NCBI GenBank assembly: GCA_009379825.1
Contig: WHTA01000001.1
Span: 124,001 to 188,000, forward strand
Direction: 5' to 3'
DNA from: Streptosporangiales bacterium
GTDB taxonomy: Bacteria; Actinomycetota; Actinomycetes; Streptosporangiales; WHST01
DNA: 64,000 nt
Shown here one piece after another: positions 10,742 through 16,436 of the stretch. The number at the start of each line of letters is the position of its first letter. Position 1 is the stretch's first letter. Made by a program: the position numbers and the translations under genes. The notes under the pieces are model-generated. The model was given only the letters and a program-made list of their open reading frames with translations, ran no database searches and was not told where the DNA came from.

Positions 10742-11308
10742 GTGAGTGAGAACGCTGTGGCCACCGCAACCGGCCTGGCCGCTGGGACCTGGACGATCGA
10801 CCCGGTCCACTCCGAGGTCACGTTCAGTATTCGGCACCTGATGGCCAAGGTGCGCGGCAACTTCACCGAGTTCAGCGGTTCCGTCGTGATCGGTGACACG
10901 GTCGGCGAGTCCAAGGTGACCGCCGAGATCCAGGCCGCGTCCGTCGATACCAGGAACGAGCAGCGCGACGGTCACGTGCGGTCCGCCGAGATCCTCGACG
11001 TCGAGCAGTACCCGACGCTGAAGTTCGTCTCGACCGGTCTGCGTACCGACGGTGACGACTACCTGCTCGACGGCGAGCTGACCCTCAAGGACGTCACCCG
11101 CGCGGTGACCCTGCAGGTGGAGTTCAACGGCACCGGCACCGACCCGTGGGGCGGCACCCGCGCCGGCTTCTCCGCGACGACCGCGGTCAGCCGCGACGAC
11201 TACGGCGTGGACTTCAACGTCCCGCTGCCCGGTGGTGACAAGGCGCTGCTCGGCGACAAGGTCGAGATCGCCATCGAGGTCGAGGCCGTCCTCGACGCGG
11301 GCAACTGA
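10742..11308 (+). CDS. YceI family lipocalin-like protein
   Basis: A 188-residue YceI-type beta-barrel that in known members binds isoprenoid or other amphipathic ligands. The signature opening GTWTIDPVHSEVTFSIRHLM (residues about 14-33) and the repeated elements FSGSVVIGD, SVDTRNEQRDGHVRSAEILD, YPTLKFVST and LTLKDVTRAVTL follow in order. There is no signal peptide, which is normal for actinobacterial cytosolic members. GTG start with AAGGAGG eight bases upstream. It is divergent from marR and is followed by a strong hairpin terminator. Confidence 0.92.
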   Translation: MSENAVATATGLAAGTWTIDPVHSEVTFSIRHLMAKVRGNFTEFSGSVVIGDTVGESKVTAEIQAASVDTRNEQRDGHVRSAEILDVEQYPTLKFVSTGLRTDGDDYLLDGELTLKDVTRAVTLQVEFNGTGTDPWGGTRAGFSATTAVSRDDYGVDFNVPLPGGDKALLGDKVEIAIEVEAVLDAGN

Positions 11309-11333
11309 CCCGTACCGGTCCTGCACGAGGCAC

Positions 11334-11370
11334 CCGAGTTGGCCGGCGTCGTACGTGCCGGCCAACTCGG
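11334..11370 (+). terminator. Hairpin terminator after yceI
   Basis: Perfect 14-bp arms (CCGAGTTGGCCGGC and its complement) flank a nine-base loop. The hairpin lies 26 bases after the yceI stop and 30 bases before the next start. No T-tract follows, as is common in GC-rich actinobacteria. Confidence 0.75.
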
Positions 11371-11399
11371 GACCACATAGCGAGAAAGGACGTTCGATC

Positions 11400-11867
11400 G
11401 TGATTCCGGTCCGTCGTCTGAACCATGCGGTGCTCTTCGTCAGCGACCTGGAGCGAGCGGTCGCGTTCTACACCGAGGCGTTCGACATGCAGGTCGCCGC
11501 GCAGGAGCCCGCCGCGAACGCCGCGTTCCTACGCGCAAGGCGCGGTGACAACCACCACGACCTGGGGCTGTTCGGCCGCGGTGCCGGCGCACCGCACCCA
11601 CCGCGGGGCAGCACCGGCCTGTACCACCTCGCCTGGCAGGTCGACGACATCCGCGACCTGGCCGAGGCACGCGAGACGCTCCGGGCGTACGGCGCCCTCA
11701 CCGGGGAGAGCGACCACGGCGCGACGAAGAGCATCTACGGCGTCGACCCCGACGGCAACGAGTTCGAGATCATGTGGATGCTCCCGCGCGACCAGTGGGG
11801 CGCCTACGAGGGCGAAGCACCAGTCCGCCCACTCGACCTCGACGCCGAGATCGCCAAGCACAGCTGA
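11400..11867 (+). CDS. VOC (glyoxalase/dioxygenase superfamily) protein
   Basis: A 155-residue vicinal-oxygen-chelate protein with two beta-alpha-beta-beta-beta modules. Candidate metal ligands are His in RLNHAVLFVSDLERAV (residue 8), His in GLYHLAWQVDD (about 76), and Glu in DPDGNEFEIMW (about 123), matching the glyoxalase metal pattern. The GTG at 11400 is preceded by GAGAAAGGACG. The long open frame upstream runs back through yceI in another frame and is not real. The substrate cannot be inferred. It is flanked on both sides by strong hairpins, so it is probably monocistronic. Confidence 0.87.
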   Translation: MIPVRRLNHAVLFVSDLERAVAFYTEAFDMQVAAQEPAANAAFLRARRGDNHHDLGLFGRGAGAPHPPRGSTGLYHLAWQVDDIRDLAEARETLRAYGALTGESDHGATKSIYGVDPDGNEFEIMWMLPRDQWGAYEGEAPVRPLDLDAEIAKHS

Positions 11868-14088: not shown

Positions 14089-14511
14089 TCAGCGCCGACG
14101 GCTCACCGCGGCGGCGAGGTTCACCACGAGGATGCCCAGCCAGACGATGATGAGGCCCACCACGCCGGTGTTCCCCGCGACGACGGCGATTCCGGTCAGC
14201 GGGACGCCCAGGGCCGTGGTGACGATGCCGAGCGCGAGCTGGCCACCGTCCATGCCCTGCCGTGCCGGGCGGCTCGGCTGCTGCGCGAGCCGACTGTCGA
14301 TGCGCGCGTCGATGGTCTGCTCGAGCCGTTCGAGGAAGCCCTCGACCAGCGCGCCCTCGTACTCGGGGCCGAGCTCGCGGCGGGCGTCCAGGGCCGCGTG
14401 CAGGTCCGCGCTCATCGCCGCGTCGGGGCGCCGCGCCGGCGGCCGGTGGTGTGCCGGGTACCGGGGCGCCGGCGGCGTACCCGGTCGGGCTCGACCTGGG
14501 GTGTTGTCCAC
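14089..14511 (-). CDS. Small membrane protein with coiled amphipathic stem
   Basis: A 140-residue protein. The N-terminal 30 residues are Pro/Arg-rich. A charged helix follows (LGPEYEGALVEGFLERLEQTIDARIDSRLAQ, about residues 45-75). Two membrane helices are near the end (LALGIVTTALGVPLTGIAVVAG and VGLIIVWLGILVVNLAAAV), and the protein ends RRR. I recall similar actinobacterial membrane proteins of unknown role. The GTG at 14511 is one choice; an internal ATG before SADLHAAL is another. It is divergent from the DUF5999 gene, with a perfect palindrome between them. Confidence 0.65.
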   Translation of the reverse strand: MDNTPGRARPGTPPAPRYPAHHRPPARRPDAAMSADLHAALDARRELGPEYEGALVEGFLERLEQTIDARIDSRLAQQPSRPARQGMDGGQLALGIVTTALGVPLTGIAVVAGNTGVVGLIIVWLGILVVNLAAAVSRRR

Positions 14512-14650
14512 ACCACCCTTTATACCCGAGACGCGATATGTCGCAAGGCAATTGCCGCTTCCAGATGCCGGATCGGACGGATACGGAGGATCACCCCCTG
14601 AACACGCCGGAGGATAACCGCCGGCGTAGGGTGAAGTGCGCCACAATGGA

Positions 14651-14673
14651 CCTGTTGTGAAGGTCACAACAGG
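14651..14673. promoter_or_regulatory. Perfect 23-bp palindrome upstream of the DUF5999 gene
   Basis: Ten-base arms CCTGTTGTGA and TCACAACAGG flank the triplet AGG. It ends 29 bases before the DUF5999 start codon in the gap shared with the divergent membrane-protein gene. A dyad of this quality so close to a start suggests an operator, or a leader hairpin. No regulator gene of matching type is adjacent. Confidence 0.6.
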
Positions 14674-14702
14674 CACCGAAACAGTTGCGGAGGAACACGA
14701 CG

Positions 14703-14906
14703 ATGTGCGCCCACCAGCCACGGTGCCCGGAGGCTGACACCTCCGAGCGCGAAGCGGCACGCACCGTGGCCAGCCACCCCGAGCAGGGATGGAGCCTGCT
14801 CTGTAACGGGGTCGTCCTCTTCGAGGACACGGGCGAACTACTGCCCAGCGGTCAGGTCGTCGCCCCACACCGACCGACCGGCGGGCCGAAAGCCCCCGCC
14901 GCGTAG
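14703..14906 (+). CDS. DUF5999 family small protein
   Basis: A 67-residue protein matching the DUF5999 family known from Streptomyces and relatives: MCAHQPRCPEADTSEREAA, then HPEQGWSLLCNGVVLFEDTGELLP, then VVAPHRP. Two cysteines and several histidines near the N terminus may bind metal, but that is inference. The function is unknown. The ATG at 14703 is preceded by GCGGAGGAAC. An in-frame ATG 18 bases upstream adds MRRNTT and overlaps the ribosome site, so it is rejected. A perfect palindrome lies just upstream. Confidence 0.82.
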   Translation: MCAHQPRCPEADTSEREAARTVASHPEQGWSLLCNGVVLFEDTGELLPSGQVVAPHRPTGGPKAPAA

Positions 14907-15200
14907 CTGCGCGGGGAACAGCCCCGAGAACCACACACTGCCCCGACCTCAGTGTCGTACGCGTCCCCAGGAGCGCCGTTCTCGTGCGCCCGAGAACGGA
15001 TGTCGACCAGTTCGCCGGTCAACATCCGTGTGCGTAACCGCTGAGTGGCCCGGCCGGTCGGCGACCGAACTCCGCCTTCTTCGGTTCGATACCGGCGTCG
15101 CCCGGGCCGAACCACCCCGCTGGTCGCCGCCGACCAGCGGGCACGACGAGCTCCGGGTTGCCGTCGCCGTCGAGGTCCCGGGGTTGGCCGGGCATAGCTG
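14907..15200. other. Intergenic region with a remnant FG-GAP motif
   Basis: No intact gene is visible in this 294-base gap. On the minus strand, 15177-15142 encodes DLDGDGNPELVV, the calcium-loop consensus of FG-GAP/VCBS repeats, in a frame that has no start codon and overlaps the end of the sigma-factor gene. It ends at a stop near 15019. It looks like debris of a secreted propeller protein. Confidence 0.35.
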
Positions 15201-16436
15201 CTACAGCTGGCCGAGTCGGTCCGCCTGTGCCTGTAGGTACCGCTGTTCCGGGATGCTCGTCGTCAGCCGGGCCGCCTCCCGGTACCCGGCGAGTGCGCCT
15301 TCGGCGTCGCCGGCCCGCTCCAGCAGGTGGGCCCGTACCGCGGTGAGCCTGTGGTGGTCGCCGAGCGTGTCGTCGAGCGACTCCAGCATGGCCAGGCCGG
15401 CGCGGGGGCCGTCCACCATGCCGACGGCCACCGCGTGGTTGAGCGTGACCATCGGGCCGGGTGCGAGCCGTTCGAGCAGCCGGTACAGGCCGACGACCTG
15501 CGGCCAGTCGGTGTCCTCGGCACGGGCGGCCTCCGCGTGCACGGCCGCGATGGCGGCCTGCACCTGGTACGGGCCGACGGGCGCGCGCGTCAGGGTGTCG
15601 CCCACCAGCGCGAGACCCTCGGCGATGGCCGCGGTGTCCCAGCGGCTACGGTCCTGCTCGGCCAGCGGTACCAGGCTGCCGTCGGCACGGGTACGGGCCG
15701 CACGGCGCGCGTCCACCAGCAGCATCAGCGCGAGCAACCCGGCGACCTCGCCGTCGTCGGGCAGCAGTGCGCGTAACGTCCTGGTGAGCCGGATCGCCTC
15801 CGCCGTCAGGTCGCTGCGGTAGAGCGCGGCGCCGGACGTGGCCGTGTGCCCCTCGGTGAAGACCAGGTACAGGACGTGCAACACCGCGGCGAGCCGGGCC
15901 GGACGCTCCCCTACAGGCGGCGGCTGGAAGTGAGCGCCGGCAGCCTTGATCCGCGCCTTGGCACGGCTGATGCGCTGCGCCATGGTCGTCTCCGGCACGA
16001 GGAACGCCTTGGCGATCTCGGCGGTGGTGAGGCCGCCGACCGCGCGCAACGTCAGCGCGATCTGCGACGCCGGGGTGAGCGACGGGTGGCAGCACAGGAA
16101 CAGCAGCGTCAGCGTGTCGTCCGCGTCCGCCAGGTCGCCGTCGGCGGGGTCCTCGCCCTGCCGGTCCGGTTCCTGCGCCGCGAGCCGCGGCTCGCGGCGC
16201 CGGTTCGGCTGCTCGCTGCGCAGCTGGTCGGTCAGCCGGCGGTTGGCGACGGTGATCAGCCAGCCGCGCGGGCTGTCCGGCACGCCCTCGGCCGGCCACT
16301 GCGTCACGGCGGCGAGCAGCGCCTCCTGCACGGTGTCCTCGGCGGCGGTGAACTCGTGCCGGTGCCGAAGCGGCGCGGCGAGGACCTGCGGCGCCAGGTC
16401 GCGCAGCAGGTCCTCGAGTGCGGCCGGGGTGGTCAC
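15201..16436 (-). CDS. ECF sigma factor with C-terminal TPR-like domain (ECF42 type)
   Basis: A 411-residue sigma factor, about twice the size of a minimal ECF protein. Region 2 includes EDTVQEALLAAVTQWP (near residue 30-45) and PRGWLITVANRRLTDQLRSE. Region 4 includes GGLTTAEIAKAFLVPETTMAQRISRAKARI near 130-160. The C-terminal half (about 190-411) is the helical DUF6596/TPR-like extension with LYRLLERLAPGPMVTLNHAVAVGMV. This arrangement, beside a DGPF/YCII gene, defines the ECF42 group, where the extension rather than an anti-sigma factor controls activity. It starts with GTG overlapping the TGA of the DGPF gene. Confidence 0.9.
   Translation of the reverse strand: MTTPAALEDLLRDLAPQVLAAPLRHRHEFTAAEDTVQEALLAAVTQWPAEGVPDSPRGWLITVANRRLTDQLRSEQPNRRREPRLAAQEPDRQGEDPADGDLADADDTLTLLFLCCHPSLTPASQIALTLRAVGGLTTAEIAKAFLVPETTMAQRISRAKARIKAAGAHFQPPPVGERPARLAAVLHVLYLVFTEGHTATSGAALYRSDLTAEAIRLTRTLRALLPDDGEVAGLLALMLLVDARRAARTRADGSLVPLAEQDRSRWDTAAIAEGLALVGDTLTRAPVGPYQVQAAIAAVHAEAARAEDTDWPQVVGLYRLLERLAPGPMVTLNHAVAVGMVDGPRAGLAMLESLDDTLGDHHRLTAVRAHLLERAGDAEGALAGYREAARLTTSIPEQRYLQAQADRLGQL

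Follow-up and report, generated by a model that had tools for sequence, protein, structure and literature searches.

Within the window, by which we mean the whole 64-kb stretch of DNA analysed here, a perfect inverted repeat lies in the gap between two divergently oriented small genes, a short distance upstream of the one that encodes a DUF5999 protein. The genes and elements of this gap and of its immediate surroundings are the following.

14089..14511, minus strand: divergent small gene, with a GTG start just after TATAAA and a weak DUF3040 resemblance (Pfam E 0.031, below the cut-off)
14519..14544, minus strand: promoter block of the divergent gene, TTTATACC....GACGCGATATGTCGC as written on the plus strand, TTGCGA/TATAAA-like on the minus strand (alignment A1)
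14629..14649, plus strand: promoter block GGGTGAAGTGCGCCACAATGG of the DUF5999 gene, identical at 19 of its 21 positions across three genomes of the genus, each of which contains it once
14642..14647, plus strand: putative -10 hexamer CACAAT
14651..14673, no strand assigned: perfect 10-3-10 palindrome CCTGTTGTGA-AGG-TCACAACAGG, an operator-like dyad across the putative start site
14689..14693, plus strand: GGAGG, which probably serves the DUF5999 gene as ribosome-binding site, read directly from the sequence and lying outside the palindrome
14703..14906, plus strand: DUF5999 gene, 67 aa, MCAHQPRCPEAD..., Pfam PF19462 (E 1.7e-34, residues 2-58)
15201-16436, minus strand: ECF sigma gene (Sigma70_r2/r4 with DUF6596), the next gene past DUF5999 and convergent with it, starting 1.8 kb away from the dyad

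The sequence-only reading that singled out this palindrome had described it as perfect over 23 bp with AGG at its centre, and inspection of the sequence confirmed this exactly, the arms occupying 14651-14660 and 14664-14673 with 0 mismatches. An eleventh arm pair is absent (A14650 and C14674 are unpaired), which makes the palindrome a 10-3-10 one. The surroundings had also been described correctly: 29 bases (14674-14702) separate the palindrome from the ATG at 14703, the protein that begins there does belong to DUF5999, and the gap is indeed divergent, the gene on its other side starting with the GTG at 14511, ~140 bp from the palindrome. The product of that gene is probably membrane-bound, as judged from its sequence; its DUF3040 resemblance was obtained on a longer frame (14089-14532).

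DUF5999 relatives were found in 193 of the 200 genomes covered by an order-level search, and residues C2, H4, C8, and C34 are invariant in all 38 aligned sequences (alignment A2), which suggests that DUF5999 is a small metal-binding protein. Its predicted model (mean pLDDT 79.4) consists of four short strands and has no helix-turn-helix; no structure in the PDB matched it at E <= 0.001, the PDB contained no sequence relative of the protein (best E 0.54), and a single search of one literature collection found no paper on DUF5999. In the MCQH-type (Streptomyces-like) loci, which fall among L035-L111, 33 of the 39 distinct upstream regions carry an in-frame, stop-free ATG that follows a GG-rich stretch and precedes the MCQH methionine by 10-31 codons, mostly by 22-25, so that the true start of these genes may lie at the upstream ATG.

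Perfect dyads in the window and in the source genome

Six perfect inverted repeats with arms of at least 10 bp and loops of 0-10 bp are present in the window, and ten Markov copies of it gave 0 to 7. In 856 kb of the source genome (the window plus 40 further stretches), 112 such repeats were counted vs 32.6 expected under the Markov model, 72 of them within called coding sequence. When only arms with a G+C content of at most 0.55 are considered, as in the palindrome at 14651-14673, the same 856 kb contain 10 perfect repeats vs 0.4 expected, an observed rate of 0.0007 per 60 bp. The palindrome exceeds what is expected from base composition, a comparison made on a feature selected post hoc from a reading of the whole window.

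Two other repeats of the window deserve mention in their own right. The one with the longest arms of the six is a perfect 15-9-15 repeat (CCCGAGTTGGCCGGC..GCCGGCCAACTCGGG) at 11333-11371, in the short stretch that separates a TGA at 11306-11308 from the GTG at 11400, which, judged by eye, opens a glyoxalase/VOC-type gene. In the convergent gap between the DUF5999 and ECF sigma genes, a G+C-rich perfect 11-4-11 repeat (CCCGCTGGTCGCCGCCGACCAGCGGG) at 15116-15141 is perhaps a terminator lacking a T run.

The nine other perfect dyads with arm G+C of at most 0.55 were placed against called genes and Pfam matches and served as a comparison set. They are listed here by locus and position.

L160:8870-8903: CGNR zinc-finger gene, between 8858 and 8913 on reading the frames
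L162:2709-2730: TetR gene, overlapping its called start
L162:11362: start of an ECF sigma gene
L163:6161-6185: MarR gene, perfect and AT-rich, 6 bp from the called start
L163:7161-7189: WYL gene, between 7143 and 7207 on reading the frames
L172:9475-9497: IclR gene, perfect and AT-rich, 8 bp from the called start
L162:18821-18846: AraC gene, uncertain, before or inside the gene start, with a short gene and an ArsR gene opposite
L174:9703: no regulator, just after a GNAT gene
L195:7709: no regulator, inside a phage antirepressor-like gene

The gene caller was a crude GC-frame script that assigned some gap classes wrongly, and four of these dyads (those of L160 and L163:7161, and the two at L162:2709 and L162:18821) lay inside called frames and were reassessed by reading the frames. 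Six of the nine stand where a regulator gene begins, and two of them (L163:6161-6185 and L172:9475-9497) are candidate autoregulatory operators by their sequence and position. Of 47 divergent gaps, 15 were picked at random, and 6 of these 15 also contained a regulator, a control made of divergent gaps only, whereas the comparison dyads were taken regardless of gap type. At the resulting rate of 0.4, the probability of seven or more cases out of nine is 0.025 and that of six or more, calculated by hand, ~0.10; the enrichment in regulators over random gaps is thus weak when the uncertain seventh case is dropped. For three of these regulators we looked at the conservation of the dyads and found no clear orthologs in the two other genomes of the genus, the best full-length match having 48% identity. 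Since six and perhaps seven of the nine dyads adjoin regulator genes, operators are the class to which a dyad like that at 14651-14673 most plausibly belongs.

Conservation upstream of DUF5999 genes

The genus-level family search covered three genomes, namely that of the window (G000), G001, and G002, and the gap was aligned (alignment A1) using the window, L005 for G001, and L033 standing for G002. Both other genomes have kept the DUF5999 gene, the divergent layout, and the 21-bp promoter block. The consensus of this block is GGGTGA.G.GCGCCACAATGG, its last letters are CACAATGG, and GGTGANNNGCGCCACAATGG occurs exactly, once each, in the three genomes. On the side of the divergent gene, GACGCGATATGTCGC is found exactly once in G000 and in G001, and with one mismatch in G002. 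The palindrome, in turn, is absent upstream of DUF5999 in both other genomes. It occupies a region, between the promoter block and the Shine-Dalgarno sequence, that aligns poorly across the three genomes, and the leader measured from TGG to ATG is 53 nt long in G000, 57 nt in G002, and 47 nt in G001.

A wider set comprised 110 loci (L003-L112), from which 109 upstream regions were taken (L075 was left out), 92 of them distinct; some loci of its two collections come from the same genome, and the start of L011 was placed a few codons too far in. In 55 of the 92 distinct regions, a motif related to the end of the promoter block, [AC]ACA[AC]TGG, lies no more than 140 bp upstream of the gene, compared with a mean of 0.78 in shuffled sequences. 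It is present in several actinobacterial groups; 37 of the 39 MCQH-type regions have it, as do 18 of the 53 others. A scan for sigma-70 promoters found none. The conserved element upstream of DUF5999 is this putative promoter motif and not the palindrome, and it is the promoter block that offers the better starting point for understanding how DUF5999 is regulated.

None of the 91 other distinct upstream regions contains a perfect palindrome with 10-bp arms, that of the window standing alone. The best palindrome per region reached 6, 7, 8, 9, and 10 arm matches out of 10 in 7, 54, 26, 4, and 1 regions, respectively, the shuffled counterparts being 7.8, 54.5, 27.2, 2.3, and 0.1; the 92 regions as a set therefore show no excess of palindromes over shuffles. 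An imperfect palindrome with 8 of 10 matches and a loop of 3 (GTGTGGTGTGCGTCATACCCCAC) was found in 10 of the 109 regions (Microbispora-type). We reject conserved imperfect palindromes in front of DUF5999, because the distribution of best palindromes across the 92 distinct regions equals that of the shuffles. Conservation before orthologous DUF5999 genes, which the sequence-only reading had put forward as a check on an operator, thus failed both within the genus and in the wider set.

The search for the same dyad in the genome and its relatives, proposed along with it, yielded no further copy. The full dyad occurs once in the 6.15-Mb genome. With up to three mismatches, TGTTGTGANNNTCACAACA has two places in the source genome, the second carrying three mismatches, and the reversed control gives one; with at most one mismatch, it was found in a single genome among the 200 sampled from the order and, as an exact match, in a single one among the 396 sampled from the phylum, in both cases the own genome, once. 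The looser pattern TTGTGAN{0,16}TCACAA has two places in G000, the second of which has a spacing of 11 and precedes an ECF sigma gene, and none in G001 or in G002. We therefore see no regulon of a global regulator, the dyad being single in the genome and a set of spaced TTGTGA/TCACAA sites being absent.

When up to two mismatches are allowed, the shorter core TTGTGANNNTCACAA has 22 places in G000, 20 in G001, 11 in G002, and 33 in G003, vs 10, 13, 8, and 14 for the reversed control. In G000, the site of the window has no mismatch and the other 21 have two, many of them of the TGGTGA or TCGTGA kind, and we tentatively read this surplus as an effect of composition and not as a regulon. As a raw count, the exact dyad was also present in 31 viral-contig stretches.

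What the palindrome may be

Among the readings weighed here, the most likely ranking places an operator first, with no function close behind and an RNA hairpin third. We tentatively favour, at somewhat less than even likelihood, a young, species-specific operator-like dyad that lies over the DUF5999 start site and acts on DUF5999 alone. Transcription would start ~7 nt after CACAAT, at ~14653-14656, and the dyad would then span about -3 to +20 of the DUF5999 transcript. It would be bound by a dimeric repressor whose gene lies elsewhere, and the bound dimer would keep transcription of DUF5999 from starting, leaving the divergent gene unaffected; the core promoter would have been retained and the operator added recently in one species. 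Immediately downstream of the conserved CACAATGG block, where the dyad is found, is a usual place for a repressor site. An operator is also plausible because perfect AT-moderate dyads are so far in excess of expectation (10 vs 0.4) in a genome of 70% G+C. Several facts speak against it: the genes on either side of the gap are not recognisable as regulators, unlike at most of the comparison dyads; the palindrome is unconserved even within the genus and has no perfect counterpart of its size in the 91 other distinct upstream regions; and it is a single site in the genome, which would make for an odd one-site regulon. Of the earlier proposal of an operator, what stands is its plausibility as a class, from the regulator genes beside six of nine similar dyads and the overlap with the putative start site; conservation speaks against it, and the dyad does not recur. 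At most, the dyad would be a young control site of an ordinary kind, confined to one species, and no new regulatory system. If the operator reading is true, it would imply a fast turnover of control at the promoter of a gene widespread in the order and might offer a handle on DUF5999.

A possibility to be taken seriously, although we rank it below the operator, is that the palindrome has no function and is a neutral repeat within a leader that is under no constraint. It would have arisen either by chance or when a near-palindrome underwent template-switch repair, a process that yields perfect arms. Such an origin would fit the bad alignment, within the genus, of the stretch from CACAATGG to the Shine-Dalgarno sequence and its varying leader length, the uniqueness of the dyad in the genome and the lack of a flanking regulator, the ordinary number of palindromes upstream of orthologs, and the large share of perfect repeats in called coding sequence. 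It accords less well with AT-moderate perfect dyads being ~25 times commoner than the Markov expectation, and with most of those sampled lying at regulator genes.

An unlikely reading is a hairpin at the 5' end of the mRNA: the transcript would begin inside the left arm or immediately ahead of it, and the stem would shield the 5' end or tune DUF5999 translation. The 23-mer on its own folds at -13.5 kcal/mol (z -4.3 vs shuffles) and leaves the GGAGG free, as in a stabiliser, but the fold in its leader context is unexceptional (-33.7 kcal/mol, z -1.43) and a start ~7 nt after CACAAT would cost 2-4 of the outer-stem pairs. Moreover, perfect stems within the initial 40 nt of 56 other distinct leaders reach 5 bp at most, and Rfam gave no match near its cut-off, the one match elsewhere scoring 14.1 bits vs 50.

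That the dyad is one operator serving both divergent genes, as had been suggested initially, is very improbable. The genes are divergent and share a single gap, but the divergent gene has its own genus-conserved block (TTTATACC..GACGCGATATGTCGC), ~105 bp from the dyad and directly before a GTG that looks leaderless, and the dyad is unconserved; control of both directions is unsupported because of this separate promoter. Still less probable is that DUF5999 itself, as a metal-binding regulator of the dyad, would repress its own gene. This would supply the regulator missing beside the dyad, as at six or seven of the nine comparison dyads, and the four-strand model without helix-turn-helix speaks neither for nor against it, but the DUF5999 genes of relatives have no dyad. 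The least probable of all is that the palindrome is an intrinsic terminator or belongs to a repetitive element. Only the stem-loop form speaks for this, against the lack of a T run, the 0 terminator-like sites in 14400-14750, the position at a gene start, and the single copy in the genome.

Comparison with known binding sites

No regulator family matching the dyad emerged among the known sites compared, namely those of CRP/GlxR, Rex, and RsrR class 1, and the literature search, run with six spellings, found no paper with an N3-spaced consensus; in a query that included TGTTGTGA, all of the matches listed had matched TGTTGTGA alone. The CRP/GlxR consensus is TGTGA-N6-TCACA and that of Rex TTGTGAA-N4-TTCACAA, which leaves 6 bp between TTGTGA and TCACAA. 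The palindrome has TTGTGA and TCACAA half-sites in common with both, but a CRP/GlxR site is ruled out by its spacing of 3 bp instead of 6, and a Rex operator likewise by 3 bp instead of 6 between TTGTGA and TCACAA. Nor does the genome contain a set of such sites, the pattern with spacings of 0-16 occurring at only the two places given above.

In Streptomyces venezuelae, the class 1 sites of RsrR, a member of the Rrf2 family, are 11-3-11 inverted repeats and are accompanied by many half sites (PMC5015018). Class 1 sites resemble the palindrome in having two long arms and a 3-bp spacer near a start site. This likeness is one of layout, and the arms are 11 bp long in one and 10 bp in the other, the eleventh pair (A/C) being unpaired in the palindrome, which also stands alone, in contrast with the many half sites of RsrR.

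As a perfect dyad at a gene start, AT-moderate and with arms split by a short spacer, the palindrome also has the form of autoregulated operators of the MarR, IclR, and TetR types. The putative examples in the same genome (L163:6161-6185, L172:9475-9497, and L162:2709-2730, respectively) adjoin a regulator gene, whereas the palindrome adjoins DUF5999.
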